DNA from: Agromyces marinus
GTDB lineage: Bacteria > Actinomycetota > Actinomycetes > Actinomycetales > Microbacteriaceae
Assembly: GCF_021442325.1 (NCBI RefSeq)
Contig: NZ_CP087879.1
Coordinates: forward strand, 2,046,001 to 2,110,000
Length of the DNA stretch: 64,000 bases
Direction: 5' to 3'
The position numbers and the translations under genes were made by a program. Below the pieces are notes generated by a model. The model made no database searches and was not told the DNA's origin. It saw nothing but the letters and a program-made list of their open reading frames with translations. This document shows, piece by piece, positions 1,896-64,000 of this stretch; position 1 is the first letter of the stretch, and each line of letters opens with the position of its first letter.

Positions 1896-1931
1896 CCCGG
1901 AGCGGATGCCGCGACACGACGTCGCACGCGA

Positions 1932-3062
1932 TCAGCCCGCGAACCACCCCGTCGCGCCGACGGTCTCGCCCATTCGGGGCACGTACTGGTCGAAGTAGAC
2001 GCGCGAGACGAGTTCCCGGCGGCTGCGGACGCCGGCCTTGTCGAACACCGACTTCAGGTGGTCCTGCACGGTGTAGGCCGACACGTGCAGCGTCGAGGCG
2101 ATCTCCTTCGTCTCGACGCCCTGGAGCACGAGGCGCGTGACATCGCGCTCGCGCGAGGTGAGCCCGAACGCGGCGACCACGAGCGAGACGATCTCGGGCG
2201 GCCTCGCCTCCTCGATGGTCACGACGACGTCGCCGGTCGCGCCGGCGGCGCCGCGCAGCGGCGACGCGTGGAGGAGCAGCCAGGTGCCGGACGCGGTCCG
2301 GACCCGGGCGCGCGCCGGGGGTGAAGCGGGGTCGGCGAGCGTGCGGCGTGCGGCCCCGACGAGCGAGGTGACGAGGCTGAGCGGGTCGCCGCCATGCGCG
2401 TTGCCGCGCAGCGCCGCGAGTCGCTCCTCGGCGCCGAGGCTGATCTGCGCCACCTCGTCGTGCGCGTCGACGATGACGACGGCGGGGCCGCCGGTCTCGT
2501 CGCCCGCATCCTCGTGGGCGAGTCGGGTGAGGATGCCCGAGCGCACGCCTCGCGCGAAGGACTCCGACAGCGAACCCAGGAAGTCGACCTCGTCCGAGGT
2601 GAAGGAGGGGTCCTCCGGCCCACGGAAGATCGCGAGGCACCCCCAGACGGCGGTGCCGTCGCGGAACAGCAGACGGGCCTCGTCGGCGAATCCGTAGACG
2701 GGCGTCATGAGCCGCGTCATCCGCTGCGACCGGTCGAGCTCGTCGCCGGCGGTCGCGTGCATGCCGATCGCGCGGTGATCGCCGGCCGCGAGCGATCGGA
2801 ACGACGTCGGCTCCTCCGAGCCGTACTCGATGATGCCGAAGAGCCGATCGTGCTCGTTGTGCGCCTTCAGCGCGCCGTACTTGCGGGCACTCGTGAGCAT
2901 CATCGTCGCGGGGTCGTGGGTGCCGACGCACGCGCCCACCCAGGGGACGGCGCGGAGCACCGAGTCCGTCGCCTCGCCGATGAACTCGTCGAGATCGAGC
3001 CCGGCGCGCGAGAGCACGTCGAGGTCGCCCCGCACGCGGGCCCCGGTCAGCTGGGGAATCAC
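1932..3062 (-). CDS. LuxR-type transcriptional regulator with N-terminal sensor
   Basis: This 376-residue protein ends in a LuxR/GerE helix-turn-helix at about residues 300-362, recognisable by LTSRERDV, the KEIASTL segment and TVQDHLKSVFDKAGV. Residues 25-190 look like a GAF-type sensor and 195-280 like a PAS-type segment, but neither is certain. It reads divergently from the FAD oxidoreductase at 3319, so it is the likely local regulator of that gene. The start is a GTG; a CATACT hexamer ends six bases before it, so its mRNA may be leaderless. A short inverted repeat between the two genes is a candidate operator. The ligand cannot be inferred. Confidence 0.82.
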   Translation of the reverse strand: MIPQLTGARVRGDLDVLSRAGLDLDEFIGEATDSVLRAVPWVGACVGTHDPATMMLTSARKYGALKAHNEHDRLFGIIEYGSEEPTSFRSLAAGDHRAIGMHATAGDELDRSQRMTRLMTPVYGFADEARLLFRDGTAVWGCLAIFRGPEDPSFTSDEVDFLGSLSESFARGVRSGILTRLAHEDAGDETGGPAVVIVDAHDEVAQISLGAEERLAALRGNAHGGDPLSLVTSLVGAARRTLADPASPPARARVRTASGTWLLLHASPLRGAAGATGDVVVTIEEARPPEIVSLVVAAFGLTSRERDVTRLVLQGVETKEIASTLHVSAYTVQDHLKSVFDKAGVRSRRELVSRVYFDQYVPRMGETVGATGWFAG

Positions 3063-3097
3063 GCGTTCAGTATGCGCCTCGCCCGGCCCGACCGGTA

Positions 3098-3113
3098 TCC
3101 CAGATCACTGGGA
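3098..3113. promoter_or_regulatory. candidate operator between luxR-type gene and FAD oxidoreductase
   Basis: TCCCAG and CTGGGA form six-base arms around ATCA in the divergent intergenic region. A related CTGGGGAATC lies at the start of the regulator gene itself, so two half-similar sites flank the presumed promoter. Binding by the LuxR-type protein is inference. Confidence 0.3.
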
Positions 3114-3318
3114 ATCGCCCTGTCCGGCCGCGTGGATTCCGGATTCCCCGGGCGCTCGGGATGTCGCCCGGGCCGCCGCGCCGCGCACGATGGCTGCACG
3201 CCGACGACGCGACCGCGCAGCTCTGCATGTCGCTCGTGCGGCTCGAGGTCCCGGGATGCTCGTGCGACTCGCGGCAGAGGTGGACACATCACCCGTACTC
3301 CTGAATCGAAGGACTGAC

Positions 3319-4692: not shown

Positions 4693-4737
4693 GCACCGCA
4701 CGCCGCGGTTCGACGCACCACTGAGCGGATGCCGCCC

Positions 4738-4812: not shown

Positions 4813-5742
4813 TCAGGCGTGCGTCGCCGGCTCCCGCCGCCCACGCCCTGACGGCTCGAGCTGGAACGTCGAGTGCTCGACGTCGAAGTGCTCGTCGAGG
4901 CATCCGCCCAGTTCGTCGAGCAGCGCGTCGACTCGGTGCTCGGCGAACACCGCCGGCTCGACCTCGACATGGGCGCTGAACACGTGCGCGCCGGTCGTGA
5001 TCGCCCACACGTGGACGTCGTGCACGGCGACCACGCCGTCGGTTCGGAGGATGTGCTCGCGGATCTCCGCGACATCCGTCTCGGCGGGAACCGACTGGCT
5101 GAGCACGTGCACGACGTCGCGCAGCAGCACGATCGCGCGCGGGACGATCAGGGCCGCGATCAGGAGCGACGCGATCGGGTCGGCGGCGCTCCACCCGGTC
5201 GTGAGGATGACGATCGCCGCCGCGATGACCATGACCGACCCGACGGTGTCGCCGAACACCTCGAGGTAGGCGCCGCGGAGGTTGATCGAGGTGCCCGCCC
5301 CGCCGCGCAGCACGAGCAGCGCCGCGACGTTCGCGACGAGGCCGGCGACCGCGACGACGAGCATCGGCCCGCCCCCGACCTCGTGCGCCTCACCCGCGGC
5401 GCCGGACACGAGCCGGCCGACGGCGCCGATCGTGACGGTCGCGGCGACGACGATGAGCACGACCCCGTTGATGAGCGCGCCGAGCACCTCGAACCTGCGG
5501 AAGCCGTACGTCTGGCGGTCGGTCGCCGGCCGGGCGGCGACGAGCGCGGCGCCGAGCGCGACGACGAGTCCGAACAGGTCGCTGACCATGTGCCCGGCGT
5601 CGGCGAGGAGGGCGAGCGAGCCGCTGAGGAACCCGCCGACCACCTGGACGATGACGAACGAGCCGATGATCGCGATCGCGATCAGCAGGCGGGTTCGTCC
5701 GGCGGCGTGCGCGTCGGCGGCGTGGTCGTGCGTGTGTCCCAT
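4813..5742 (-). CDS. cation diffusion facilitator (CDF) metal exporter
   Basis: This 309-residue protein has six predicted membrane segments and the CDF layout. It begins with a His-rich leader (HTHDH). The transmembrane-2 metal site is HMVSD with H51 and D55. The matching transmembrane-5 site reads EVFGD (E161, D165), so the His found in zinc-type CzcD/ZitB proteins is replaced by Glu, which may alter metal preference. The cytoplasmic C-terminal domain (about 215-295) carries the VHDVHVWAIT motif. It is predicted to export Zn2+ or a similar divalent ion in exchange for protons. The ATG at 5742 lies seven bases after a TACGCT promoter element, so it is transcribed apart from the upstream murI-rph-rdgB operon. 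Confidence 0.9.
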   Translation of the reverse strand: MGHTHDHAADAHAAGRTRLLIAIAIIGSFVIVQVVGGFLSGSLALLADAGHMVSDLFGLVVALGAALVAARPATDRQTYGFRRFEVLGALINGVVLIVVAATVTIGAVGRLVSGAAGEAHEVGGGPMLVVAVAGLVANVAALLVLRGGAGTSINLRGAYLEVFGDTVGSVMVIAAAIVILTTGWSAADPIASLLIAALIVPRAIVLLRDVVHVLSQSVPAETDVAEIREHILRTDGVVAVHDVHVWAITTGAHVFSAHVEVEPAVFAEHRVDALLDELGGCLDEHFDVEHSTFQLEPSGRGRREPATHA

Positions 5743-5749
5743 CCCCTCA

Positions 5750-5824: not shown

Positions 5825-6457
5825 TCAGCCGGACCGCGCGACGCGCTCGAGCTCGGGCAGCAGCGCCCGGAACGCGCGCGCCCGGTGGCTGTGCGCGTTC
5901 TTGACCTCGGGCGCGAGCTCGGCGGCCGACACGTCGAACCCGTCGGGCAGGAAGATCGGGTCGTACCCGAACCCGTTGACGCCCGCGCGCCCGGTCGCGA
6001 TGCGGCCGGGCCATGTGCCGACGGCGGCGAATTCGTGCGGCTCGCCGCCCGCGGCATCCGGCACGACCAGGGCGATGGTGCAGTGGAAGTGCGCCGAGCG
6101 GTGCGGGTCGCGGATGTCGCCGAGCTGCGCGAGCAGCAGTTCGAGGTTCGCTTCGGCGCCGCGCCCGGGCCCGGCCCAGCGGGCCGAGAAGATGCCCGGC
6201 GAGCCGCCCATGACCTCGACCGCGATGCCCGAGTCGTCGGCGAGCGCGATGCACCCGGTGTGGGATGCCGCGGCGCGCGCCTTGATGAAGGCGTTCTCGT
6301 CGAAGGACGTGCCGTCCTCGACGGGCTCGGGCCCGTCGTAGGGCAGCACCGTGATGCCCGGGAACTCGGCGCCGAGGATCTGCTGGAACTCGGCGACCTT
6401 GTGGGCGTTGTGCGTGGCGAGGACGACCTCGAGCGGCTGCGGCATCCGCTCACCCAT
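5825..6457 (-). CDS. rdgB: XTP/dITP pyrophosphatase
   Basis: A 210-residue Ham1/RdgB nucleotidase that hydrolyses non-canonical purine triphosphates (dITP, XTP) to the monophosphates, keeping deaminated bases out of DNA and RNA. Family motifs are clear: VVLATHNAHKVAEF at the N-terminus, SFDENAFIKARAAA, ALADDSGIAVEVMGGSPGIFSARW with the catalytic Asp, and GFGYDPIFLPDG near the C-terminus. The ATG overlaps the last base of the rph stop codon (TGATG), implying translational coupling. The order murI-rph-rdgB is widely conserved in actinobacteria and couples RNA maturation with nucleotide-pool cleaning. Confidence 0.95.
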   Translation of the reverse strand: MGERMPQPLEVVLATHNAHKVAEFQQILGAEFPGITVLPYDGPEPVEDGTSFDENAFIKARAAASHTGCIALADDSGIAVEVMGGSPGIFSARWAGPGRGAEANLELLLAQLGDIRDPHRSAHFHCTIALVVPDAAGGEPHEFAAVGTWPGRIATGRAGVNGFGYDPIFLPDGFDVSAAELAPEVKNAHSHRARAFRALLPELERVARSG

Positions 6458-7215: not shown

Positions 7216-8108
7216 TGGGTTCTCCTGTCGGTGGCGGATGCCGCGGGCGCGGCGGTTCCGGATGAGGCGGTGCGCGCAGCGGATGCCGCGGCTGCGGGCA
7301 GGGTGAGCACGCCGGTCTGCACGAGCTCGACCTGCGAGATCTCGGGACCGATGAGGCGGTGCGCGAGGTCGAGGAACGCGGCGCTCGAGCCGCCGGTGGC
7401 CTCGAAGCGGTGCACGGGCGGTTCGGGCGCGCGGCGTTCGAGCCCGCCGGAGACGAGCACCCGGTAGACGTCGTTCGCGGTCTCGACGTCGCTGCCGACG
7501 AGGCTCACGCCCTCCCCCATGACGTACGAGATGACGCCCTTGAGGAACGGGTAGTGGGTGCAGCCGAGCACGAGCGTGTCGACGCCGGCGGCGCGCAGCG
7601 GCGCGAGGTACTCCTCGGCGACGGCGAGCACCTCGGGCCCGGTCGTGACGCCCGACTCGACGAACTCCACGAACCGCGGGCACGCGGCCGAGGCGAGTTC
7701 GAGGTGCGGGGCGGCGGCGAACGCGTCGTCGTAGGCGCGCGACTGCACGGTGCCCGCGGTGCCGATGACGCCGACGCGGCCGCTGCGGGTCGCCGCGACC
7801 GCACGCCGCACCGCGGGCTGGATGACCTCGACGACGGGCACGTCGTAGCGTTCGCGCGCGTCGCGCAGCATCGCCGCGGATGCGGTGTTGCACGCGATGA
7901 CGAGCATCTTCACGCCCTGCGCGACGAGGTCGTCGAGCACGGCGAGCGCGTAGCGGCGCACGTCGGCGATGGGCTTGGGCCCGTAGGGCGAGTGCTCGAG
8001 GTCGCCGAAGTAGAGGATCTGCTCGTTCGGGAGCTGGTCGCGCACCGCGCGCGCGACGGTGAGCCCGCCGACGCCGGAGTCGAAGATCCCGATCGGTGCA
8101 TCACTCAC
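7212..8108 (-). CDS. murI: glutamate racemase
   Basis: MurI interconverts L- and D-glutamate, supplying D-Glu for peptidoglycan. This 298-residue protein shows FDSGVGG with D10 and S11, the first catalytic cysteine in ACNTAS (C73), the second in GCTHYP (C183, followed by H185), and the substrate-contacting GTAGT loop near 117. It is longer than most homologues because of an Ala/Thr-rich tail of about 30 residues after the fold. It heads the murI-rph-rdgB operon. The GTG start lies eight bases after a TAGGCT element, suggesting a leaderless or nearly leaderless transcript. Confidence 0.96.
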
Positions 8109-8122: not shown

Positions 8123-8185
8123 GATCAGCGGATGCCGCGGCCGCCCGTTCCGCGCCCGCGGCGCGACCGCGACCCGTGCAGTGGC

Positions 8186-8197: not shown

Positions 8198-9517
8198 GTG
8201 ACCGGGTCTGCTGCGCTCTTCACCGACCGCTACGAGCTGACGATGGTGGATGCCGCCCTCCTGGACGGCACCGCGCACCGCGAGAGCCTGTTCGAGGCGT
8301 TCGCGCGGCGCCTGCCGGACGGGCGCAGGTACGGCGTGGTCGCGGGCACGGGCCGCCTGCTCGAACTCGTCGAGCGGTTCCGCTTCGGCGACGACGAGCT
8401 CGAGTTCCTGCGCGCGGAGCGCGTGGTGCGCGACGAGACGCTCGACTGGCTGGCCGACTACCGGTTCCGCGGCGAGATCTGGGGCTATCGCGAGGGCGAG
8501 GCGTACTTCCCGGGGTCGCCGCTCGTGACGGTGCAGGGGTCGTTCGCCGAGGCGGTCATCCTGGAGACCCTCGTGCTGTCGGTGCTGAACTACGACTCCG
8601 CGGTCGCGGGTGCGGCGGCGCGCATGGTGTCGGTCGCGCTCGGCAGGCCGATCGCCGAGATGGGCTCGCGCCGTGCGAACGAGCGGTCGGCGGTCGCCGC
8701 GGCACGCGCGGCGTACATCGCCGGGTTCGATGCGACCAGCAACCTCGAGGCCGGCCGGCGGTGGGGCATCCCGACCATGGGGACCGCTGCGCATTCGTTC
8801 ACGCTCCTGCACGACTCCGAGGAGGATGCGTTCCGCGCGCAGGTCGAGGCGATGGGTCCGGGCACGACGCTGCTGGTGGACACGTACGACATCCGCGCGG
8901 GCGTCGAGACGGCGGTGCGCGTGGCCGGCACGGGTCTCGGCGCGGTGCGCATCGACTCGGGCGACCTGCCGACGGTCGCGGCGGCGGTGCGGGAGCACCT
9001 CGACGAGCTGGGTGCGGTGAACACGCGCATCACGGTCACGAGCGATCTCGACGAGCACGCGATCGCGTCGCTCGCGAGTGCTCCGGTCGACGCGTACGGC
9101 GTGGGCACGTCGGTCGTGACCGGGTCGGGGTTCCCGGCCGCGGGCATGGTCTACAAGCTCGTCGCGCGTCGGGGCGAGGACGGCGCGTGGGTGGGCGTCG
9201 CGAAGGCGTCGACGAGCAAGACGAGCGTCGGCGGGCGCAAGAACGCCGCTCGGCGCATCGATGCCACGCGCACGGCACGGGAGGAGCTCGTGTACGTCGG
9301 CGACGGGCCCGGGGGCGAGGATGAGTTCGCGGCGGACGACCGCCTGCGGCCGCTCATGGTGCACCTCATGCACGAGGGCGAAGCGGATGCCGCCCATGTC
9401 GGCCCGGCAGGCGTGAGGGCCGCACGGGCGCATCGCGCCGAGGTCATGCAGGAGCTGCCGATCGAGGCGTTCCGGCTGGGTCGCGGCGAGCCGGTGATCC
9501 CGACCACGTATCGCTGA
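8198..9517 (+). CDS. pncB: nicotinate phosphoribosyltransferase
   Basis: PncB makes nicotinate mononucleotide from nicotinate and PRPP, the committed step of NAD salvage. The 439-residue product has the N-terminal TDRYELTM motif, the NYDSAVA and GSRRAN motifs, and [11 protein letters not shown], in which H199 corresponds to the phosphorylated histidine that couples ATP hydrolysis to the reaction. RIDSGDLP near 250 and the GVGTSVVTG phosphate-binding segment follow, with the KxS-rich loop after about 330. The GTG start fits the promoter spacing. It is divergent from murI and single-gene. Length and motifs are intact. Confidence 0.95.
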
Positions 9518-14352: not shown

Positions 14353-14370
14353 CCCTGCGCACCACAGCGT

Positions 14371-14403
14371 GAAGAGCGGATGCCGTGACGGCATCCGCTC
14401 TTC
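14371..14403. terminator. perfect hairpin made of two inverted GCGGATGCC words
   Basis: A 15-bp perfect stem (GAAGAGCGGATGCCG and its complement) with a TGA loop follows the nucleotidyltransferase stop. It contains the genome-wide repeated word GCGGATGCC once in each orientation. No T-run follows. It probably ends the upstream transcript, since a fresh promoter lies just downstream. Confidence 0.65.
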
Positions 14404-14452
14404 GCATTCGGCGGCCGGACGCGCGCGGCACGGGACGCCCCTGCGCTCCCCC

Positions 14453-23075: not shown

Positions 23076-23218
23076 GTTCGCTCCTTCCAGCGGATGCCAG
23101 CTTCCCGCCCCAAGCTGTGTCGCGGATCGGCGGACTCTATGACGAACCTATGTCGTCCCCGGGAACCGCCCGGATGTCGCGGGCGTGCCCGAGACAGCGT
23201 AGCCGCCGAGCCGTGGCA

Positions 23219-30833: not shown

Positions 30834-30931
30834 TCGGGGTCGGGACGGGTTCGAACTTCCATCCTACGGTCGCCGGAGAGCGTGATGCCCGGGAGCCTCG
30901 CAGGTGGCCCCCTGTGCGGGGCGGATGCCGC

Positions 30932-33682: not shown

Positions 33683-33782
33683 CCGGCTCGGAAGGCCCGC
33701 CCCGGCCCCGCCAGCTCGCCCGTCTGCGCGCCTGTGGACGGCGCCGACGGCGGCGGCATCCGCTCGGGCATGCTTGGCGCCC

Positions 33783-45493: not shown

Positions 45494-45798
45494 TGGAACT
45501 GCTGTTCGTCGCGCTCGGCGGCGCGATCCTCGGGCTCGGCGCGAGGTACGCCGTGCCCCGGCGTCGGTTCCACGGCGTCGTGCTCGTGCCGGCCGTGGGC
45601 ACCGGCGTCGCGGCCGTCGTCTGGGTCGCGCTGACCTGGCTCGGCATGCCGTGGGACGGCGGCTGGATCTGGGTCGTCTCGCTCGTGGCATCCGCTGCGG
45701 CCGCCGTCGGGGTGGCCTACCTCGTCGGCCGTCGACGCGAAGACGACGACGCGCGCACCTTCGAGCGCCTCGCGCGCTTCGGGCTCGCCCGCGGCTGA
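45493..45798 (+). CDS. small membrane protein
   Basis: A 101-residue protein with three hydrophobic stretches (about 2-18, 28-50 and 58-80) and a charged C-terminal tail with RRREDDDARTFERLARF. No family is recognised. It is translationally coupled to the DUF3107 gene. Its role is unknown. Confidence 0.8.
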   Translation: MELLFVALGGAILGLGARYAVPRRRFHGVVLVPAVGTGVAAVVWVALTWLGMPWDGGWIWVVSLVASAAAAVGVAYLVGRRREDDDARTFERLARFGLARG

Positions 45799-52195: not shown

Positions 52196-53055
52196 CTAGG
52201 CGTCGCCGCGCTCGCGCGCGGCGCGGCGCGCGGCGTCCTGCGCCTCGCCGTAGGTGAGGGGGCGGTCGGGGTCGATCGCGGGGCGTGCGGGGTCGGCATC
52301 GGCTTCCGGCTCGGCGTCGGGGCCGGCTTCTGCGGATGCCTCGTCGGTGCGCTTGTCGCCTGCCTCGGGCTCGTCCGGCGACGGGCCGACGCCCGAACCG
52401 GTCGCTGCACCCGAGGCCCTGGTACCGGCACCCGGCGCATCCGCGCCGCCGACAGCCGATGCCCCGGCACCACCCGACGCCCCGACGCCCGGGGCACCAC
52501 CGTTCCCGGCACCGCCCGCCCCCAAGCGCCCCCGACGGGGGCAGCAGGCGACGGCGGCGCCGCGGCATCCGTCACGCCCAGGACCTGCCTGGCACGGCTG
52601 ACGTGCTCGGAACTGCCGACGATCGCGTACCGCGTCGCGAGCACCTGCATGACCGAGGTGAAGTCGCGGCGGCGGCGGTTGACCGAGTAGGTCACGACGG
52701 AGAAGATCATGCCGAAGCCGGCGCCGAAGAGCACGGCGGCGGCGAGCACGCCGAGCGAGGTGCCCTGCGGGGAGAAGATGAAGAAGAGCAGACCGAGGAA
52801 CGTGCCGAGCCAGGCGCCCGAGAGCGCGCCGGCACCGGCGGTACGGCCCCAGCTGAGCTTGCCGGTGATGCGTTCGACGGTCTTCAGGTCGTGGCCGACG
52901 ATCGCGAGTTCGCGGACGGGGAACTCGGCCTTCGCGAGCGCGTCGACGGCGGCCTGCGCCTCGAGGTAGGTCTCGTAGCTGGCGACGGTCTCCCCCGTGG
53001 GCAGCGTCGGATAGGTGCGGCCGAGACGACCGCCGAACGGCGACTGGTTGCTCAC
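52196..53055 (-). pseudogene. general stress protein-like gene with apparent frameshift
   Basis: The GTG at 53055 starts a product whose first 150 residues match the actinobacterial general-stress family: SNQSPFGGRLGRTYP, TYLEAQAAVDALAKAEFPV, two transmembrane segments near 72-115, and RRRRDFTSVMQVLA. After the VLGVTDAAA region the frame opens into an implausible product, while the expected Ala/Gly/Pro-rich tail ending in YGEAQDAARRAARERGDA continues in another frame to the TAG at 52196. One missing base in the five-C run at 52519-52523 would restore a single reading frame of about 285 codons. Sequencing error, true mutation or slippage are all possible. The GAGAAT upstream may be its promoter. 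Confidence 0.7.
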
Positions 53056-53122: not shown

Positions 53123-54454
53123 GTGAGCGCCACGAGAGTCTTCGTCGCCCGACTCGCCGGGTGCGCCGTCTTCGACCCCGCCGGGGATCGCGTCGGCAAG
53201 GTCCGCGACGTGCTCGTCGTGTACCGGAAGGATGACCCTCCGCGGGTCGTCGGCCTCATCGTCGAGATCCCGGGCAAGCGCCGCGTGTTCGTCTCGATCG
53301 GGCGGGTCACCTCGATCGGCGGCGGTCAGATCATCACGACCGGGCTGATCAACATGCGGCGCTTCGAGCAGCGCGGCGGCGAGGTGCGGGTGATCGCGGA
53401 GATGCTCGGCCGCAAGGTCACCTTCGACGACGGCTCGGGCACGGCCACGATCGAGGATGTCGCGATCGAGGAGCGCGATGCCGGCGAGTGGGAGGTCGAC
53501 CAGCTGTTCGTGAGGCGCCCGAAGACGAGTGCGTCGCCGTTCGCGAAGGGCCCGTCCGCGTACGTGACGTGGCGCGAGGTGCATGAGACCACGGCCGTCG
53601 GCGAGGCGCAGTCGGCCGAGCAGCTCATCGCGACGTACTCCGAGCTGAAGCCGGCCGACCTCGCGAACACGCTCCTCGACCTGACGCCGCAGCGACGGCA
53701 GGAGGTCGCGGCCGAGCTCCCCGACGACCGGTTGGCCGATGTGCTGGAGGAGATGCCCGAGGTCGACCAGGTCGAGATCCTCGCCAAGCTGGGCGACGAC
53801 CGCGCCGCCGACGTGCTCGACCACATGCAGCCCGACGATGCGGCCGACCTCATCGCGCAGCTGCCCGAGGAGCGCGGTGAGCACCTGCTCGAGCTCATGG
53901 AGCCCGAGGAGGCCGAGGACGTCCGGTTCCTGCTCTCGTACGGCCCCGACACCGCGGGCGGCCTGATGACGACCGAGCCGATCATCGTCTCGGCGGATGC
54001 CACGGTCGCCGAGGGCCTCGCCCTGATCCGGCGGCACGACCTGCCGCCCGCGCTCGGCGCGGCGGTGTGCGTGACGCTGCCGCCGTACGAGCCGCCGACG
54101 GGCCGGTTCCTGGGCATCGTGCACTTCCAGCGGATGCTCCGCTACCCGCCGCACGAGCGGCTCGGGTCGCTCATCGACCAGGGGCTGGAGCCCGTCAAGG
54201 CCGACACGTCCGCCGCCGAGGTGAGCCGCATCCTCGCCAGCTACGACCTCGTGTCGGTGCCCGTGGTCGACGAGAAGCACCGGCTCGTGGGCGTGGTCAC
54301 GATCGACGACGTGCTCGACTACCTGCTGCCGGACGACTGGCGCAGCCACGACGACCACGACGACGAGCTGCACCGGCGCGCCACGGCGCGCGCGCAGCTG
54401 AACACCGGGAGCATTCCGGTCGCGGGAAGGGGGGCGCCGGATGGCACGCGCTGA
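53123..54454 (+). CDS. MgtE N-terminal/CBS domain protein lacking a channel domain
   Basis: A 443-residue cytoplasmic protein. Residues 5-130 look like a PRC-barrel or related beta domain (FDPAGDRVGKVRDVLV). About 170-275 match the MgtE N-domain, with repeated LPDDRLADVLEEMP, LGDDRAADVLDHMQPDDAADLI helices that sense Mg2+, and 280-405 hold a CBS pair. MgtE channels add five transmembrane helices here; this protein has none. It is conserved next to DUF1003 and Mrp genes in actinobacteria (Rv1232c region, as I recall). A regulatory role in Mg2+ or nucleotide sensing is likely. It overlaps the next gene by 14 bases. Confidence 0.88.
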   Translation: MSATRVFVARLAGCAVFDPAGDRVGKVRDVLVVYRKDDPPRVVGLIVEIPGKRRVFVSIGRVTSIGGGQIITTGLINMRRFEQRGGEVRVIAEMLGRKVTFDDGSGTATIEDVAIEERDAGEWEVDQLFVRRPKTSASPFAKGPSAYVTWREVHETTAVGEAQSAEQLIATYSELKPADLANTLLDLTPQRRQEVAAELPDDRLADVLEEMPEVDQVEILAKLGDDRAADVLDHMQPDDAADLIAQLPEERGEHLLELMEPEEAEDVRFLLSYGPDTAGGLMTTEPIIVSADATVAEGLALIRRHDLPPALGAAVCVTLPPYEPPTGRFLGIVHFQRMLRYPPHERLGSLIDQGLEPVKADTSAAEVSRILASYDLVSVPVVDEKHRLVGVVTIDDVLDYLLPDDWRSHDDHDDELHRRATARAQLNTGSIPVAGRGAPDGTR

Positions 54455-54965: not shown

Positions 54966-56118
54966 CGTCGAGGCCGCCGTCCGCACGGCCCTCGCCGGGG
55001 TCGTCGACCCGGAGATCCGCCGCCCGATCACCGAGCTCGACATGGTCGACCGGGTCGTGGCGACCGCGACGGGCGTCGAGGTCGGCATCCGCCTGACGAT
55101 CGTCGGCTGCCCGGCGTCGGACCGCATCGAACGCGACGTCCGCGCCGCGGCCGAGGGCGTCGTCGGCGCGGGCAACGCGGTCGTCGAGCTCGGGGTGATG
55201 ACCCCCGAGCAGCGGCACGCCCTCACCGAGCGGCTCCGCGGCGGGCGCGCGGCGCGCGGCAACCCGTTCGGCCCGGGCACGCTGACGCGCGTGATCGCGG
55301 TCACGAGCGGCAAGGGCGGGGTCGGCAAGTCGACGCTGACCGCGAACCTGGCGGTGGCGCTCGCGGCACGTGGCCTGTCGGTGGGTCTCGTCGATGCCGA
55401 CGTGCACGGGTTCTCGGTGCCGGCGCTGCTGGGGCTCGTCGACGAGCACGGCACCGCGGCGCGGCCGACCCGGGTCGACGACATGATCCTGCCCCCGGTC
55501 GCCCACGGCGTGAAGGTCATCTCGATCGGCATGTTCGTCGAGCCGACCGAGCCGGGCGGGCGCGGGTCGTCGGTCGCGGTCGCCTGGCGCGGGCCGATGC
55601 TGCACCGAACGCTGCAGCAGTTCCTGACCGACGTGTACTTCGGCGACCTCGACGTGCTGCTCGTCGACCTGCCTCCGGGCACGGGCGACGTGGCGATCTC
55701 GCTCGGGCAGTTGCTGCCGAACGCCGAGGTGCTGGTCGTCACGACCCCGCAACCGGCCGCGGCCGACGTCGCCGAGCGTTCGGGGCTCGTGGCCCGCCAG
55801 ACGGGGCAGACCGTCATCGGCGTGGTCGAGAACATGGCGGGGCTCGCGCAGCCCGACGGGTCGCTGCTCGACCTGTTCGGTTCCGGCGGCGGCGACGAGG
55901 TCGCCCGGCGCCTGTCGGAGGGCGTGGACGAGCCCGTCCCGGTCGTGGCGAGCGTGCCGCTGAGCGTCGCGCTGCGGCGCGGCGGCGACGACGGGATGCC
56001 GGTCGTGCTGGCCGAGCCCGACGATCCGGCCGCGCGCGCGATCGAGCAGGCGGCGGCGTTCCTCGCGGGTCGGCCGCGTTCGCTCGCCGGCCGGCACCTG
56101 GACGTCTCGGTGCGATGA
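54952..56118 (+). CDS. mrp: Mrp/ApbC-type P-loop Fe-S carrier ATPase
   Basis: A 388-residue MinD-type ATPase. Residues 1-90 form a DUF59/MIP18-like domain. The deviant Walker A is SGKGGVGKST (119-128) and VDLPPGTGD serves as Walker B. The C-terminal CxxC found in many Fe-S carriers is absent here (GVVENMAGL is followed by no CPxC), so cluster binding may be weaker or done differently. As I recall, other actinobacterial Mrp proteins also lack it. The ATG at 54952 sits nine bases after GGAGG. It overlaps the DUF1003 gene and is separated from the lipoprotein gene by 12 bases. Confidence 0.9.
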   Translation: MPDPDVEAAVRTALAGVVDPEIRRPITELDMVDRVVATATGVEVGIRLTIVGCPASDRIERDVRAAAEGVVGAGNAVVELGVMTPEQRHALTERLRGGRAARGNPFGPGTLTRVIAVTSGKGGVGKSTLTANLAVALAARGLSVGLVDADVHGFSVPALLGLVDEHGTAARPTRVDDMILPPVAHGVKVISIGMFVEPTEPGGRGSSVAVAWRGPMLHRTLQQFLTDVYFGDLDVLLVDLPPGTGDVAISLGQLLPNAEVLVVTTPQPAAADVAERSGLVARQTGQTVIGVVENMAGLAQPDGSLLDLFGSGGGDEVARRLSEGVDEPVPVVASVPLSVALRRGGDDGMPVVLAEPDDPAARAIEQAAAFLAGRPRSLAGRHLDVSVR

Positions 56119-56130: not shown

Positions 56131-57069
56131 ATGCCGCGTGCCGCTCGCTCGACTGCACCGCCCGTGGGTGCGCGGGTCGCGGCAGCGCCGCTCGCCGCCC
56201 TGATGGTGCTCGCGTCGGCGGCGTGCTCGCCGCCGGCGCCTGAGCCCGGCGAGCCCGAGGGCCTCCCCGACGGCCTCACCCTGGAGGTCCGGCAGGGCCG
56301 CCTCGACGTGCCGCAGGGCCTGCTCGTGCTGCACTTCGCCAACTCGGGCGACCCGCTCGAGGTCTCGGGCTTCGAGGTCCACTCCCCCGCGCTGCGCCCC
56401 GGCATGACCCGTGACGACCCGTTCGAGCTGGGTCGCGACGACGCGATCGACATCCGCCTGCCGCTGCCCGGGACCGTGTGCGACGGCGATCCGACCGAGG
56501 TCGGCGTCGAGGTGCGCGTGGTCGCCGCGGACGGCGGGGAGCGCACCGGAACCCTCGTGCCCGACGACCCGTTCGACACGATGGCCCGGATCGCCGCGAC
56601 CGACTGCCTGGCCGAGTCCGTCGCGGCGGTCGCCGCGATCGAGCTGCCCGATCGGCTGCGCACGACCGGGGCGGATGCCGCGATGCGGGCGTGGATCGAC
56701 GTGCGAGTGGTGCCCGTGGCATCCGCTTCGACCGGAGGCGGGTCGGGCGACGGAGCCGTCGACCACACGCTCTCGATCGCCGGGGTGGCCGCGACGACCC
56801 TCATCGGCGACGAGGACGGCGGGGACTGGGCGCTCGACCTGGAGGTCGCGGCGGGCGACGAGCCGGTCGATGTGCCGCTCGCGGTCCGCCCCGCACGCTG
56901 CGATGCGCACGGGATCGCCGACGACAAGCGCGGCACGATCCTGCCGTTCGACGTCGCGACCGGCGACGGGCGCGAGGGCCGGCTCGAGTTCGCGTCGGGC
57001 GACGCGCTCAAGGCGGACCTGTACGCCTACTACACCGAGCGGTGCGGGCTCGACCGGCCCGCCGGGTGA
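56131..57069 (+). CDS. exported lipoprotein, hypothetical
   Basis: A 312-residue protein with a lipoprotein signal peptide: positively charged N-terminus, hydrophobic core near 15-30 and lipobox LASAAC with the lipidated Cys near residue 32. The mature part holds two or three beta-rich segments (about 50-110, 110-170 and 210-300) separated by acidic Gly/Pro linkers. Three cysteines near 125, 155 and 260 could form disulfides. No family is recognised. The ATG at 56131 is chosen; a GTG at 56122 is an alternative. It is the last gene of the MgtE-N/CBS operon and converges on the PLP lyase gene. Confidence 0.7.
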   Translation: MPRAARSTAPPVGARVAAAPLAALMVLASAACSPPAPEPGEPEGLPDGLTLEVRQGRLDVPQGLLVLHFANSGDPLEVSGFEVHSPALRPGMTRDDPFELGRDDAIDIRLPLPGTVCDGDPTEVGVEVRVVAADGGERTGTLVPDDPFDTMARIAATDCLAESVAAVAAIELPDRLRTTGADAAMRAWIDVRVVPVASASTGGGSGDGAVDHTLSIAGVAATTLIGDEDGGDWALDLEVAAGDEPVDVPLAVRPARCDAHGIADDKRGTILPFDVATGDGREGRLEFASGDALKADLYAYYTERCGLDRPAG

Positions 57070-57088: not shown

Positions 57089-58621
57089 CTAGCCTCGCGG
57101 TTCGACGACGCGCGCCAGCAGTTCGACGAGCAGCCGCTCGGTGAGGCGCCCCGGCAGCGCCTCGACGAGCGCGAGCACGGGAGCCAGCCGGTCGGGCAGT
57201 GCCCCGCCCGCGCCCTCGCCGCCGAGCAGGCCGAACGCGCCGAGGAGTCCCGCCGCGGTGTCGGAGTCGAGCCCTGCGGATGCCGCGGCGAGCCCCGCCG
57301 TACCGCCCGGGAGGGACGCCGCGAGCCCCGAGACGAGCTCCGCACCGTCGACCGCGGGCACGCCGCGCACGGCGTCGGCGGCCGCGACGAGCGCCGGCAC
57401 GAGTTCGCCGACGACCGAGTCGGTCACGGGCGTCACCGTCAGGTGCGCCGTCCGCGCCAGGACCCGGCCGTCGGCCTGCACCATTCCGGGCTGCAGTTGC
57501 AGGTGCCATCCGCTCGCACGCGCCGCATCCGCCCAGTGGTGGGGGTCGACGCGACGCTCCGCGGGAACACGCTCGTCGGCGCGCACCGCGAACAGCGGGC
57601 CGACCGGGTCGCCCACGACCCGCAGGCCCTCGATCGCGTCGACGGCCTCGCGCACTGCGCGCGTCGCCTCGGTCGCGCGTGCGGTGAGCCGCACGAACCC
57701 GGGCTCGCCGAGCACCTGCACGATGGCCCAGGCCGCGGCGAGGGGGCCGGCGGGCTTGGATCCGGCGAGCGTGGGGTTGACCACGGGGTAGCCGGGCCAG
57801 CCGGTGGTGGCGAAGTACTGGCGGCGCTGCCGGTCGCGTCCGCGCTGCAGGAGCACGGAGACGCCCTTCGGCGCGTAACCGTACTTGTGCAGGTCGGCCG
57901 ACAGGCTCGTGACGCCGGGCACCGCGAGATCCCAGTCGGGCAGGCCCTCCTGGAAGGCCAGTGCGAACCCGCCGATGCAGGCGTCGACGTGCAGGGCGAT
58001 GCCGTGCCGGGAGGTGATCGCGGCGACCTCGGCGACCGGGTCGAGCGTCGCGAACGGGTACGACGGGGCGCTCAGCACGACCAGCGCGACATCCGCGTCG
58101 AGGCGTGCCGCGACGTCCGCGACGGCCGGCGCGCCGGTCTCGGGGTCGACCGGCACCAGGTCGAGGCCGAGGCCGAACGCCTGTGCTGCCTTGTGGAATG
58201 CGGCGTGCACCGTCGTCGGGGCGAGCAGCCGCGGCATCCGCTCGTCGTCGGGGTTCGCCGCACGCCACACGTCGCGTGCGGTCTTGACCGCGAGCATGCA
58301 GCTCTCCGTGCCACCGCTCGTGACGGAGCCGACGACCTCGTCGGCGGGCGCGACGGCGCCGGACGCATCGCCGTGGAAGATGCGCCGGGCGAAGCCGACG
58401 ACGTCGGACTCCATCGCGGCGACCGAGGTGAACGTGGTGGGGTCGAGCCCGTTCACCGGCTGCACGAGGCGCGCGGCGCGCGCGGCGAGGTCGTCGAGTT
58501 CGGCGAGCCCCGAGTCGTACACGTACGAGAGCACCCGCCCGCCGTGCGTCGGCGCGTCGGCCTCGCGCAGTGCGACGAGCTCGGCGAGCACGTCGTCGGG
58601 CTGTCGTTCGAAGTCGGTCAT
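57089..58621 (-). CDS. PLP-dependent lyase/decarboxylase, sphingosine-1-phosphate lyase-like
   Basis: A 510-residue group II decarboxylase-fold enzyme. THGGRVLSYVYDSG, VVGSVTSGGTESCMLAVKTARD and HVDACIGGFALAF...VPGVTSLSADLHKYGYAPKG resemble sphingosine-1-phosphate lyases more than glutamate decarboxylases. K246 (HKYGYAPKG) is the PLP lysine and D213 the pyridine-nitrogen partner. The C-terminal 100 residues are Ala/Gly/Leu-rich and unusual. The ATG overlaps the MFS stop by four bases (ATGA), so it is the second gene of that operon. An aldehyde-forming lyase reaction would feed the divergent aldehyde dehydrogenase. Substrate not known. Confidence 0.82.
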   Translation of the reverse strand: MTDFERQPDDVLAELVALREADAPTHGGRVLSYVYDSGLAELDDLAARAARLVQPVNGLDPTTFTSVAAMESDVVGFARRIFHGDASGAVAPADEVVGSVTSGGTESCMLAVKTARDVWRAANPDDERMPRLLAPTTVHAAFHKAAQAFGLGLDLVPVDPETGAPAVADVAARLDADVALVVLSAPSYPFATLDPVAEVAAITSRHGIALHVDACIGGFALAFQEGLPDWDLAVPGVTSLSADLHKYGYAPKGVSVLLQRGRDRQRRQYFATTGWPGYPVVNPTLAGSKPAGPLAAAWAIVQVLGEPGFVRLTARATEATRAVREAVDAIEGLRVVGDPVGPLFAVRADERVPAERRVDPHHWADAARASGWHLQLQPGMVQADGRVLARTAHLTVTPVTDSVVGELVPALVAAADAVRGVPAVDGAELVSGLAASLPGGTAGLAAASAGLDSDTAAGLLGAFGLLGGEGAGGALPDRLAPVLALVEALPGRLTERLLVELLARVVEPRG

Positions 58622-60080: not shown

Positions 60081-61646
60081 GTGACCGATGCCGACACCCT
60101 CCCCCAGGTCCCGTCCGTCCGCGCCGCCGAAGCCCTGCTCGGCGATCTCGTCGCGACCACGGGCCGCACGTTCGCGGTGCCGACCCCCTCGACGGGCGAG
60201 ACGCTCGTCGACCTGCCCCGTTCGAGCGCGGACGACGTCCGCGACGCGGTCTCCCGCGCGCGCCTCGCGCAGGTCGCGTGGGCTCGCGTCGGATTCGCCG
60301 AACGCCGGCGCGTGCTGCTGCGCGCGTTCGACCTGATCCTGGAGCGCCGCGAGGACCTGCTCGACCTCACGCAGCTCGAGAGCGGCAAGACCCGCGGGCA
60401 GGCGTTCGAGGAGGTCTTCCAGGCGCTCTCGGTGACGCGTTGGAACGCGCTCAAGGCCCGGTCGGTGCTGCGCGGCGGCGTGCGACGCTCGGGCATCCCG
60501 GTCGCGCTCTCGACGCGCGTGAAGTACAAGTCGAAGGGCGTGGTCGGGGTCGTCACGCCCTGGAACTACGCGATCAGCCTGGCCGCCATGGATGTCGTGC
60601 CGGCCCTCGCCGCGGGCTGCGCGGTCGTGCAGAAGGCCGACGACCAGGGCGCGCTCTCGGTGCTCGCGCTGCGCCGCGCGTTCATCGACGCAGGCGTGCC
60701 CGAGGCGCTGTGGGCGGTCGTCGCCGGCGAGCCCGGCGAGGTCGGCGAAGCGCTCACCGACGAGGTCGACTACATCTGCTTCACCGGTTCGACCGCGACC
60801 GGCCGCCGCATCGCCGAGAAGGCGGGGCGGCGCCTGGTCGGCGCGTCGCTGGAACTCGGCGGCAAGAACGCGCTCATCGTGCTCGACGACGTCGACGTCG
60901 AGCAGGCGGCAGCGGATGCCGCGCACGCGTGCTTCTCGTCGATGGGCCAGCTGTGCGTGTCGATCGAGCGCATCTACGTGCACCGCACCGTCGCCGAGGC
61001 GTTCACGGCTGCGCTCGTCGCACGCCTGACCGATCCGCGGATCGGGTCGGGCCTCGACCACGAGGCCGACTACGGAAGCCTCGCGAGCGCGGCGCAGCTC
61101 GCTCGGATCACCGGGCACCTCGACGACGCGCTCGCGCAGGGCGCGGAGGTGCTCGTCGGCGGCAGGCCCCGACCGGACGTGGGGCCGTGGGCGTTCGAAC
61201 CCACGATCCTCGCGGGCGTGACGCCCGGGATGCGGGTGCTCGACGAGGAGACGTTCGGGGCGATCGCCTCGCTGCAGGTGTTCGACGACGAGCTCGAGGC
61301 GGTCTTCGCCGCGAACGACTCGGAGTACGGGTTGAACGCGTCGGTGCTGTCGGGGTCGACCCGGCACGCGCTGCGCGTGGCGGACCTGCTCGAGGCCGGC
61401 AGCGTGAACGTGAACGAGGGCTACCGGGGCAGCTTCAGCTCGGTGGATGCCCCGATGGGCGGCGTGAAGTCCTCGGGCCTCGGGCGGCGCAACGGCCGCG
61501 AGGGCCTGCTGCGGTTCGCCGACCCGGTCACGGTCTCGGTGAACACCCGCATCATCCCGCTCCCGCACACGGGGCGCGAGTACCGCACGATGATCCCGCT
61601 CATGGCGCTGTTGCAGCGCGTGTTCCGCGGCATCCGCCGCGCGTAG
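60081..61646 (+). CDS. aldehyde dehydrogenase, succinate-semialdehyde dehydrogenase-like
   Basis: A 521-residue NAD(P)-dependent aldehyde dehydrogenase. N162 in TPWNY, K185, FTGSTATGRRI, E258 in LELGGKN and catalytic C292 in GQLCVSIERI are all present, as is the EETFGAIASLQVF motif later. It is similar to mycobacterial GabD2-type succinate-semialdehyde dehydrogenases, but broader aldehydes are possible. The C-terminal tail (after 500) includes a hydrophobic helix that may bind the membrane, unusual in the family. Divergent from the MFS-lyase operon, it could oxidise the aldehyde released by that lyase. Confidence 0.88.
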   Translation: MTDADTLPQVPSVRAAEALLGDLVATTGRTFAVPTPSTGETLVDLPRSSADDVRDAVSRARLAQVAWARVGFAERRRVLLRAFDLILERREDLLDLTQLESGKTRGQAFEEVFQALSVTRWNALKARSVLRGGVRRSGIPVALSTRVKYKSKGVVGVVTPWNYAISLAAMDVVPALAAGCAVVQKADDQGALSVLALRRAFIDAGVPEALWAVVAGEPGEVGEALTDEVDYICFTGSTATGRRIAEKAGRRLVGASLELGGKNALIVLDDVDVEQAAADAAHACFSSMGQLCVSIERIYVHRTVAEAFTAALVARLTDPRIGSGLDHEADYGSLASAAQLARITGHLDDALAQGAEVLVGGRPRPDVGPWAFEPTILAGVTPGMRVLDEETFGAIASLQVFDDELEAVFAANDSEYGLNASVLSGSTRHALRVADLLEAGSVNVNEGYRGSFSSVDAPMGGVKSSGLGRRNGREGLLRFADPVTVSVNTRIIPLPHTGREYRTMIPLMALLQRVFRGIRRA

Positions 61647-62088: not shown

Positions 62089-62095
62089 GCGCACA

Positions 62096-62179: not shown

Positions 62180-62812
62180 GTGTCCGAGCACGACCTGAAC
62201 TGGAAGTACGTCGATGAAGCCGTCGTCGAGTCCGAGTCGATCGCCCGGGCTCGTCTGCAGTCGCTCGAGCTCGGGATCGAGCCGATCTCGCCCGCGGTCG
62301 GGGCGCAGCTCGCGGTGGTCGCGGCAGCGTGCGACGCTCGCGCGATCATCGAGGTCGGCACTGGCGTCGGCGTCTCGGGGCTGTGGATGCTCCAGGCTGC
62401 GCGGTCGGCGCACCTGACCTCGATCGACACCGAGACCGAGTACCAGCAGCACGCGCGCGAGCACTTCGCGGATGCGGGCATCGCCGCGGCGCGCGTGCGC
62501 CTGATCGCGGGCAGGGCGGGCGAGGTGCTGCCGCGCATGAACGAGCGCTCGTACGACGTGGTGGTCGTCGATGCGGATGCCGCGTCGGTCATCGAGTACG
62601 TCGAGCACGGCCTCCGGCTCGCCAAGCCCGGCGGGAGCGTGCTGGTGGCGCGTGCTCTGTGGAAGGGGCGGGTGGCCGACCCGGCACGGCGAGACGACGT
62701 TGCGTCGGCGTTCCGCGGGCTCATCTCGGAACTCGCGGGTTCGTCGGCGGTGGTCACCGCCATCTCGCCGGCCGGGGACGGGCTGCTGCAGATCGTGAAG
62801 CTGGGCGCCTGA
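62180..62812 (+). CDS. class I SAM-dependent O-methyltransferase
   Basis: A 210-residue catechol/caffeoyl-CoA-type O-methyltransferase. The SAM-binding motif IIEVGTGVGVSG (residues 54-65), SIDTETEYQQHAREHFADAG, the metal-ligand VVVDAD (near 132) and a VARALWKG motif near 160 follow the family order. The start is GTG with GGAG upstream; TAGGCT at 62141 gives a 25-30 base leader. The methyl acceptor is unknown. It is commonly found next to sigE/tatB/DUF3117 in actinobacteria. Its stop abuts the DUF3117 stop with no gap. Confidence 0.9.
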   Translation: MSEHDLNWKYVDEAVVESESIARARLQSLELGIEPISPAVGAQLAVVAAACDARAIIEVGTGVGVSGLWMLQAARSAHLTSIDTETEYQQHAREHFADAGIAAARVRLIAGRAGEVLPRMNERSYDVVVVDADAASVIEYVEHGLRLAKPGGSVLVARALWKGRVADPARRDDVASAFRGLISELAGSSAVVTAISPAGDGLLQIVKLGA

Positions 62813-62986
62813 CTAGGCCGCGTTGACGACGCCGCCGAGGACGTCGTAGAGCTCCTTGGCCTCGGCGTCGTTCACCGAGACGACGAGTCGACCGCCACCC
62901 TCGAGGGGTACGCGCACGATGATGAGCCGCCCCTCCTTCACAGCCTCCATCGGTCCGTCTCCAGTGCGTGGCTTCATAGCCGCCAT
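62813..62986 (-). CDS. DUF3117 family small protein
   Basis: A 57-residue protein encoded on the minus strand from ATG 62986 to TAG 62813. Its sequence begins MAAMKPRTGDGPMEAVKEG and continues through RLIIVRVPLEGGGRLVV to NDAEAKELYDVLGGVV, the conserved DUF3117 core of about 55 residues found in most actinobacteria. Function unknown; it is one of the shortest conserved genes in the phylum. AAGGGG lies about six bases before the ATG. It is convergent with the O-methyltransferase gene, stop against stop. Confidence 0.9.
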   Translation of the reverse strand: MAAMKPRTGDGPMEAVKEGRLIIVRVPLEGGGRLVVSVNDAEAKELYDVLGGVVNAA

Positions 62987-63060
62987 TGAGCTACCCCTTT
63001 CGTGGCTGAATCTCCATTATCCCGCATCGGGGGCTCGTACCGGACACCCGAGCCCTCGTT

Positions 63061-63102
63061 GTGGAGGATCGTCTACGGATCGTGGAGGCTCGTCTGCGGA
63101 TC
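63061..63102. repeat. 21-bp tandem repeat across a stop codon
   Basis: Two contiguous 21-base copies beginning GTGGAGG and ending CGGATC, differing at two positions. The second copy reaches into the stop codon of the minus-strand membrane glycosyltransferase gene. Confidence 0.85.
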
Positions 63103-64000
63103 ACGGCGGTGTCCAGTCGTATCCGTCGATGCGCCAGCCGATGAGCAACCACCCGACCTGCAGCGCGAGCGAGGCGACCACGAGACCGCCCCGCCACCAC
63201 GGCGAGCGCGGAACGGCCAGGGCGCCCGCGAGCGGGAACAGGGGCGCCAGCAGCCGGAACGTGCTCGACTGCGGGAAGAACACGGCGAACAGGTAGAGCG
63301 CGTAGCTCGCGCACCAGAGGCGCAGGTCGACCCCGAGCCGCTTGACCCACGGTGTGAAGAGGAAGACTGCGAACCCGACGACGAGCGCGATGGGTGCGAT
63401 GGTCCCCATCGGCTGGCCGAGCCACCAGTCGCCGGACTGGAACCAGGGCGTGAGCGGGGCGAGTTCGACGTAGCCGATGTAGGGCGCGCGCCAGGCCAGT
63501 TCGGTGTCGAGGTATGCGGTCGGGCTTCCGGTCACGGCCCAGGCGACGACGGGCCAGGCGAGGCCGACGAGGCCGGCGAAGACGGCGACGGATGCCACGA
63601 CGACCTGCTCACGAGCGGGGAACGGATCGCGTTCACGCGTGAACCACCGCACGATCCAGTGCAACCCGAGCGTGAGGGCGAACGCGAGCGCGCCGGGGCG
63701 GGTGAACGCCCAGACGGCGAGGACGGGCAGGAGCCACACGTAGCGCCGGTCGACGAGTAGGAGCAGCGCGATCGCGAGCCAGAGGAAGCCGAGCGATTCG
63801 GCGTACCCGAACTGCATGATGGGCGCGACGGGTGCGACGCAGAACAGCACGACGGCGAACATCGCCTGGTCGGGTTCGAGGAACCTCGTCATGAGGCGGT
63901 GGAACACGAGTGCCGCGCCGAGCCCTGCTGCGAGTGCGACGAGCACCGACGCGACATCCCAGGGCAGCCCCGCGGTCGTGAAGACGCGCACGATCGCGGG
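63101..64000 (-). CDS. integral membrane glycosyltransferase, PIG-V/GPI-mannosyltransferase-like (partial)
   Basis: The gene runs off the right window edge; the visible part is about 300 residues, with its 5' end beyond base 64000. At least seven hydrophobic helices are seen. FGYAESLGFLWLA near the start and TRPGALAFALTLGLHWI are typical of the PIG-V-related family of GT-C mannosyltransferases, which use a polyprenyl-phosphate sugar donor on the outer face of the membrane. The C-terminal end (YDWTPP) is short. The true start is not in view. It is convergent with nothing here; the DUF3117 gene lies on the same strand downstream. Confidence 0.75.
   Translation of the reverse strand, partial: PAIVRVFTTAGLPWDVASVLVALAAGLGAALVFHRLMTRFLEPDQAMFAVVLFCVAPVAPIMQFGYAESLGFLWLAIALLLLVDRRYVWLLPVLAVWAFTRPGALAFALTLGLHWIVRWFTRERDPFPAREQVVVASVAVFAGLVGLAWPVVAWAVTGSPTAYLDTELAWRAPYIGYVELAPLTPWFQSGDWWLGQPMGTIAPIALVVGFAVFLFTPWVKRLGVDLRLWCASYALYLFAVFFPQSSTFRLLAPLFPLAGALAVPRSPWWRGGLVVASLALQVGWLLIGWRIDGYDWTPP

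Follow-up and report, generated by a model that had tools for sequence, protein, structure and literature searches.

Among the closest described counterparts of the word studied here are the DNA uptake sequences of two bacterial families. The DUS of the Neisseriaceae comes in different spellings that share a core, and its inverted pairs can fold into stem-loops, according to the accessible part of the published account (PMC3630211). The Agromyces word resembles it in its many genomic copies, short common core, stem-loop pairs and presence in permissive intergenic regions. However, the letters are unrelated, Agromyces is a Gram-positive actinobacterium with tad-like clusters from a genus mostly without PilT, and no ComP-like receptor is known for its word. 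With the USS of the Pasteurellaceae, as far as the available portions of the reports describe it, the word shares a crucial inner core with weaker flanks and a similar copy number; two USS spellings occur in that family, and the spelling likewise varies in the family of Agromyces (PMC7811141, PMC12616744). In contrast to the USS, the Agromyces core lacks adjoining AT tracts, and machinery and lineage differ. An intragenic position bias of the uptake word has been described in Pasteurellaceae (PMC2346458, in the part accessible); in Agromyces, sense copies lean towards the 3' side slightly at most. Cyanobacterial HIP1 is similar in its very high density and in that alternate words take its place in some genomes (PMC4390886, available text), but HIP words are palindromes tied to methyltransferases, whereas GGATGCC, unlike the GGATCC of relatives, does not read the same on both strands. 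In Micrococcus luteus, tad genes and ComEA/ComEC serve transformation, and Agromyces carries the same type of gene set, with two tad-like clusters and comEA-comEC; the term "uptake sequence" is absent from the Micrococcus paper (PMC4322843).

The window analysed here, a stretch of 64,000 nucleotides of an Agromyces chromosome, contains GGATGCC 63 times and its reverse complement GGCATCC 34 times by exact count. A third-order Markov model trained on the window predicts 21.8 copies of this 7-mer where 97 are found, and 3.2 copies of the 9-mer GCGGATGCC where 47 are found (31 forward and 16 reverse); a fourth-order model predicts 52.3 and 9.7, respectively. The pair GCGGATGCC/GGCATCCGC ranks first among the 9-mer pairs of the window under the third-order model. 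Apart from one copy of each orientation within a hairpin (described below), the forward copies, exact matches like all the others, lie at 1902..1910, 4725..4733, 7234..7242, 7279..7287, 8128..8136, 9383..9391, 19263..19271, 19345..19353, 19762..19770, 20475..20483, 23090..23098, 24236..24244, 24834..24842, 30921..30929, 31130..31138, 32007..32015, 32321..32329, 33206..33214, 33572..33580, 34359..34367, 40520..40528, 47943..47951, 48513..48521, 51394..51402, 52332..52340, 53993..54001, 56671..56679, 57276..57284, 60912..60920 and 62573..62581. The reverse copies lie at 4899..4907, 6441..6449, 15298..15306, 16296..16304, 16977..16985, 22974..22982, 33755..33763, 34454..34462, 37603..37611, 45687..45695, 48891..48899, 55084..55092, 56718..56726, 58233..58241 and 61629..61637. 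An earlier note had claimed this over-representation, which is real and larger than it supposed: the excess stands, and its counts of about 50 and 27 were too low. That most copies fall inside GCGGATGCC was a slight overstatement (47 of 97), and each of the 19 positions that the note gave as examples is no more than 10 bases away from where a GCGGATGCC copy begins.

The genome-wide count proposed there gives 832 forward and 791 reverse copies of GCGGATGCC on the 3.2-Mb chromosome, 1623 in all, against 85 (44 + 41) for the reversed word, a control that serves as a rough yardstick only. Every 20-kb stretch of the sampled chromosome holds between 3 and 17 copies, and GGATGCC reaches thousands of copies in Agromyces genomes. 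As in DUS and USS, the word is short and not palindromic, and both strands carry it in excess throughout the genome. We propose, with modest confidence, that GGATGCC, extended in Agromyces to about RCGGATGCCGCGG, most likely acts as a DNA uptake sequence.

Chance, protein composition and codon usage were rejected as sources of the excess on the basis of synonymous shuffles, the spread over frames and intergenic copies, and from these same three observations we conclude that the preference concerns the word as DNA and not the protein, as the earlier note had suspected. In a 464-kb sample with 431 genes, predicted by a custom script and not by a standard caller, 210 coding copies of GCGGATGCC compare with 41.1 +/- 4.9 in synonymous-codon shuffles. 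The excess is present in all six frame/strand classes, which bears out the claim of copies in several reading frames; the intergenic copies also pointed out there are denser than the coding ones (0.893/kb and 0.525/kb). The word recruits the rare codons GAT and GCA. As noticed before, Asp is mostly GAC, with GAT in 970 of 8458 Asp codons, yet GAT fills 78 of 89 positions in GCG-GAY-GCC; in the control context GCC-GAY-GCC the figure is 16 of 81. GAT is also frequent in GCG-GAY-GCG (11/20) and GCG-GAY-GTC (12/19), both of which spell CGGATG when GAT is used. These two contexts could be taken to favour the idea that the word only follows from a bias in codon pairs, mutation or composition, as could the finding that CGAGCAC and TCGCCGA are likewise above synonymous shuffles in these genomes. 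We regard this idea as very improbable, given the higher intergenic density and the enrichment in all six frames. It is also at odds with genus g67 of the same family (G125 and G194), in which the word stays at the level of the reversed word, although G125 was assessed by Markov counts only and its sample has a lower GC content (0.60).

Chi and KOPS are known for a strong leading-strand orientation. No leading-strand preference of GGATGCC, as would be asked of a Chi, KOPS or AIMS word, was found in 524 of the 3202 kb, window included: with the terminus assumed at 1.6 Mb, 343 copies are on the leading and 413 on the lagging strand, a small lagging excess (p 0.012), though genes cover 294 kb of this sample on the leading strand and 160 kb on the lagging strand. 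A strand-oriented Chi or segregation word is disfavoured by this split. A Chi-like recombination hotspot or a polar segregation word of the KOPS/AIMS type would suit a short and abundant word, and a pair of genes for an AdnAB-like helicase-nuclease lies in the window at 38714-45174. Since the spelling moreover differs within the genus Agromyces (G005), we give this explanation the least credence. Among the four candidates named in the earlier note, the uptake-like word fits best, and the polar architecture motif and the Chi-like site are not supported by the strand counts.

Comparison with related genomes, also suggested at the start, finds the word widespread across 299 Microbacteriaceae genomes with changes in spelling. 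GGATGCC, GGATG[CA]C, GGATCC and CAGGATC were seen, with GGAT common to all. CGGATCC occurs 160 times against 20.8 in synonymous shuffles in G108, and 51 times against 17.7 predicted by a Markov model in Clavibacter; CAGGATC occurs 65 times against 17.3 in synonymous shuffles in G160. No clear GGAT word was found in G183, Curtobacterium and Aurantimicrobium. Spelling variants with a common core in related taxa are a property of DUS and USS as well, some genera here being without a clear word. Within Agromyces, 400 kb of G005 contain GGATGAC 304 times and GGATGCC 293 times, that is, GGATG[CA]C. In this genome GGATGCC is missing from the seven 7-mers that most exceed synonymous shuffles and has the second-lowest density of the genus; once the second spelling is added, the total density is normal. 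G005 has changed its spelling rather than lost the word. When this genome was checked for surplus one-mismatch relics of the word, its one-mismatch words taken together stood at 0.946 of expectation (0.836 in G000, 0.861 in G023), with GGATGAC (239 vs 124) as a strong contributor.

The spelling change bears on two further explanations. A binding site of an abundant DNA-binding protein, chromosome-organising or other, non-polar and chromosome-wide, would agree with copies spread throughout the sampled chromosome on both strands, in coding and intergenic DNA. But the change within the genus would demand the co-evolution of a protein bound at more than 1000 sites, and the known examples bind at far fewer places or at AT-rich targets; we consider such a site improbable. 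The main rival, unlikely in our judgement though less so than the binding site, is a methylation-linked word like HIP1, in which an orphan methyltransferase with a GGAT-type target, together with repair or conversion, would accumulate its target, the spelling following the enzyme. In the accessible part of the HIP1 report, such words have similar density, alternates in some genomes including GGGATCCC, and deviations mostly in the outer bases (PMC4390886). The GGATCC of G108 and Clavibacter is palindromic, as many methyltransferase targets are. On the other hand, GGATGCC, GGATGAC, CAGGATC and the Agromyces word are not palindromic, the Agromyces flanks are soft over several bases, and methylation leaves unexplained a pairing of copies, forward then reverse, in two Agromyces samples.

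The word consists of a hard core, GGATG(CC), flanked by softer bases; GCGGATGCC is the form that it takes in Agromyces. In CGGATGCCG, 13 of the 15 single-base changes within GGATG occur at 0.4-1.0 of expectation and the remaining two at 1.4 and 1.7, whereas at the last base A reaches 7.4 times and T 7.9 times the expectation. An essential core with softer flanks is also seen in DUS and USS, here judged by the pattern of copies rather than by function. Conservation around the word ends after a few flanking bases, which excludes a dispersed repeat element.

One inverted pair of the word lies in the window within a perfect 15-base inverted repeat with a 3-base loop (14371..14403, forward strand), its 5' arm holding a forward copy of GCGGATGCC (14376..14384) and its 3' arm a reverse copy (14390..14398). 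The repeat begins 19 bases past the stop codon (14350-14352) of a predicted forward-strand gene at 13660-14352, and the stretch 14353-14420 as RNA folds at -40.2 kcal/mol (z -4.84). Among inverted pairs of CGGATGCC no more than 40 bases apart, 25 are forward-then-reverse and 5 reverse-then-forward, and direct pairs number 8 and 5, with 4.7 expected of each kind. The preference amounts to 31 vs 8 in G000 and 14 vs 4 in G023, both Agromyces with intact comEC, so that hairpin-capable inverted pairs, as in DUS and USS, are present in these two genomes. It is not clear in G005 (3:1), nor in four further genera, each sampled on a small scale (6:4, 1:4, 4:1 and 3:3).

For the proposed uptake sequence, we envisage a receptor for DNA on the cell surface, belonging to the transformation machinery and possibly a minor Tad pilin or ComEA, that would prefer GGATGCC as a self-recognition word. 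Cells would be made competent by comEA, comEC and the tad-like clusters; fragments bearing the word would enter via ComEA/ComEC and recombine more often, and repeated biased uptake and recombination would spread and keep the word at any site that can accommodate it. Biased uptake would be the reason for its accumulation. Judged by sequence, the host has the competence machinery expected for DUS and USS: comEA-comEC at 1429107-1432187 and, by sequence matches, two tad-like clusters, in the second of which two of the four scanned genes are without a Pfam match. A PilT-type type IV pilus was rejected as the uptake organ, as a full-score PilT match occurs in 3 of 25 Agromyces, the genome of the window not among them. 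Among the matches listed in the open literature we found neither an uptake or transformation experiment for Agromyces nor a receptor for the word, and none of them describes a comparable word from Actinobacteria or Microbacteriaceae.

The presence or absence of comEC is uninformative, because the gene was found in nearly every genome, word-rich or not (38 of 40 in one search, 293 of 299 in another). Damaged comEC was compared with low word content, a hypothesis prompted by four genomes seen beforehand (G005, G319, G169 and G089). The association reached p 0.0003 for density and, when the ratio to the reversed word was used instead, 0.0007, confounded by the spelling change of G005; without Agromyces the two values were 0.009 and 0.06. 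A revised comparison gave p 0.0003-0.002, and 0.049 (density) and 0.081 (ratio) without G005 and G169. G319, in which a contig end truncates comEC, entered the first comparison only and was dropped later, and the first alone also included G228 and G356, in which no comEC or comEA was found. Neither included G089, which has no genus mate in the sample, or G013 and G051, fragmented assemblies with no comEC match. The damaged genes are a lower bound, with 150-odd comEC matches listed individually. Two things confound a tie between comEC damage and a low density of the word: G005 has a second spelling, and in G044 and G354 the gene is damaged, yet the density is not low.

Whether the Microbacteriaceae possess a third, independently evolved DUS system, the first in Gram-positives and the first to work via Tad pili, with GGAT-core spellings of genera and species as gene-exchange barriers, is in our estimation evenly balanced. 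If so, such barriers would run through an entire family of bacteria from soil, plants and water, and a Gram-positive family with another type of pilus would offer an independent replicate of how uptake words arise. It would also predict which Microbacteriaceae are transformable and by what DNA, and the many natural spellings would make the receptor traceable by co-variation. Even if linked to methylation, a non-palindromic word so abundant and so variable in spelling across a family would call for explanation.

Copies of the word are retained between close species. In four of the six species compared, the close ones, 47.6-68.2% of sites are kept against 23.8-32.1% for matched control words, about twice as often; in two more distant Agromyces, retention (3/14 and 3/13) is about that of control words. 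In the mobile elements that split comEC, the word is below the genome mean in five of five, clearly in three and barely in two, in figures uncorrected for GC and with one end of the G044 element estimated.

Exact counting in the window gave 63 forward and 34 reverse copies of GGATGCC, so the excess described in an earlier note on this DNA stands, although its rough counts of about 50 and about 27 do not. All 19 positions named there as examples lie at most 10 bases from the start of a copy of the longer form GCGGATGCC, which occurs 31 times forward and 16 times reverse. The window expectations for GGATGCC and GCGGATGCC are 21.8 and 3.2 under an order-3 Markov model, and 52.3 and 9.7 under order 4. 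Over the whole genome (a single contig of 3,202,016 bp, with the window at 2046001-2110000), GGATGCC is found 2187 and 2128 times on the two strands and GCGGATGCC 832 and 791 times, compared with 152 and 145, and 44 and 41, for the respective words with their letters reversed. Five forward GCGGATGCC copies at 135389-135463 of the same contig are spaced by 12 or 18 bases; intervals divisible by three would suit repetitive coding DNA.

The excess of GCGGATGCC is not a protein effect. In a 464-kb sample with 431 predicted genes, the genes contain 210 copies where synonymous shuffles give 41.1, the excess appearing in all 6 frame and strand classes, and 57 copies lie in 64 kb of intergenic DNA. 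Likewise, the Asp codon GAT is used in only 970 of 8458 cases overall, yet in 78 of 89 between GCG and GCC. Occurrence in several reading frames and between genes, and the unusual GAT, had all been proposed from the window and are borne out. GAT falls to 16/81 in the control context GCC-GAY-GCC. It is also high in GCG-GAY-GCG (11/20) and GCG-GAY-GTC (12/19); these still spell CGGATG, matching the GGATG core, and so are not clean controls. Moreover, the Ala codon GCA is chosen in 53% of cases ahead of Ser TCC, as opposed to 7% ahead of other Ser codons. Separately, CGAGCAC, CGAGCAG and TCGCCGA run about twofold over synonymous shuffles (window, stretches L001-L020, genomes G005 and G023), perhaps a codon-pair effect.

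The flank profile has the consensus (A/G)(A/G)CGGATGCCGCGG, and its information fades within a few bases. In coding DNA, 13 of the 15 one-base changes inside the GGATG of CGGATGCCG occur at 0.4-1.0 of expectation, the other two at 1.4 and 1.7; changing the last base to A or T gives 7.4 and 7.9 times expectation, and the GAC spelling CGGACGCCG stands at 0.4. Close pairs of CGGATGCC are arranged forward-then-reverse in 25 cases, reverse-then-forward in 5, and directly in 8 and 5, each expected 4.7 times. One forward-then-reverse pair forms a perfect 15-base inverted repeat at 14371-14403, beginning 19 bases past a stop codon, and the surrounding stretch folds with a z of -4.84. In most of its testable features this anatomy matches the uptake sequences known from Neisseriaceae and Pasteurellaceae, and we lean, by a little over even chances, towards the word being a DNA uptake sequence. 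That it could be the site of another binding protein appears quite improbable.

A Chi-like role was also considered. The contig begins within a partial gene that reads as dnaA, followed by dnaN-, recF- and gyrB-like genes, and position 1 is accordingly treated as the origin. Both strands of both arms carry the word. On the assumption of a terminus at 1.6 Mb, a 524-kb sample including the window has 343 leading and 413 lagging copies of GGATGCC (p 0.012), and 139 and 168 of GCGGATGCC. The lagging excess runs opposite to the Chi direction, and this suggestion of the earlier note is disfavoured.

A protein encoded in the window has its closest relatives in Agromyces (Microbacteriaceae), at up to 90-91% identity, which points to that genus. 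Retention of CGGATGCC sites was followed in other Agromyces species. At 81-84% nucleotide identity, 13/23 aligned cases were retained in A. kandeliae, 11/20 in A. bracchium, 15/22 in A. luteolus and 10/21 in Agromyces sp. NDB4Y10, with matched control words at 23.8-32.1% in these four. At 77% identity, A. fucosus (3/14) and A. cerinus (3/13) were about at control-word level. These small numbers suggest that copies are kept for a while, with turnover in the long run.

GCGGATGCC is abundant in all 25 Agromyces genomes, own included (367 to 2007 copies, both strands). In 15 genomes drawn from the order's other families, counts run from 58 to 232. Most of them are close to the figure for the reversed word; a few (G027, G029) exceed it about two- to threefold. 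Across the Microbacteriaceae (299 genomes, 85 genera), GGATGCC peaks in G131 (7364 vs 293 reversed) and lies at reversed-word level in genus g67 (G125, 229 vs 245; G194, 223 vs 248). In genomes with little GGATGCC, a related word may stand in its place. Measured against synonymous shuffles, CGGATCC leads the 7-mers of G108, and CAGGATC those of G160. Markov expectation is also exceeded by CGGATCC in a 23-kb Clavibacter sample and by GGATGCG in both Herbiconiux and Agrococcus, these words having been chosen among GGAT words only. G183, Curtobacterium and Aurantimicrobium (the last two 23 kb each) gave no clear GGAT word. The palindrome GGATCC, and not GGATGCC, is strongly over-represented in G108 (L243-L247) and Clavibacter (L085). 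A link of the word to methylation would be an unlikely explanation, and little weight falls on readings other than this one, an uptake sequence or another binding protein. In 400 kb of G023 (L213-L232), CTTTTCAGGA has 13 copies against 0.0 expected, probably as part of a dispersed repeat.

For an uptake sequence, gene content is relevant: the host lineage carries predicted genes for transformation. In the own genome comEA (230 aa, helix-hairpin-helix and SLBB) stands immediately ahead of comEC (795 aa). There are also two clusters of the tad type, one at about 364-372 kb and another at about 2036-2041 kb, 5 kb ahead of the window; both contain a T2SSE-family ATPase, with a Flp pilin in one and TadE in the other. 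Two adjacent UvrD/RecB-type helicase-nuclease genes (window 38714-45174, minus strand) resemble AdnA and AdnB. No comEC or comEA match was found in G356 (1.2 Mb, 10 contigs, 98% complete). According to PMC4322843, Micrococcus luteus requires both tad clusters for transformation, and tad with ComEA/ComEC is a frequent combination in actinobacteria. Microbacterium, a family member, is listed in PMC10257627 among acquirers of a spiked plasmid by Hi-C of a mixed culture, which does not test the word itself.

Seven genomes lack the first third of comEC at its place, the gene being split or shortened near codon 250 in four Microbacteriaceae genera. In the cases with both sides visible, the inserted elements measure about 10-47 kb. 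Splitting elements lie on C1 of G005 (522178-538794; L179, L155), G169 (304451-343648), G195 (320940-336905) and G250 (285549-332207), where comEA and the 5' part of comEC are 16-47 kb away. The gene is also split or cut short in G044 (about C1:1371600-1381233; comEA alone, about 10 kb away), G048 (L156:878-2431; 5' side not found within the 40 kb inspected) and G279 (L159; 5' side not found before the contig start). A serine-recombinase-like gene of 478-517 aa adjoins the 3' part in five genomes. Scans of four of them gave the Pfam families Resolvase and Recombinase, and G048 was judged from sequence only. In G044 neither of two scanned genes has a Pfam match, and in G279 no such gene is evident. 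Insertions into other competence genes are described in PMC4774983, and interruption of Piscirickettsia comEC by transposable elements in PMC12955456. Word density in the seven genomes is overall below the genus mean, as a loss of competence would predict, but G044 is average, and in G005, an Agromyces, the low GGATGCC density reflects a second spelling, GGATGAC, used about equally. Density is high in G354, whose comEC is frame-shifted.
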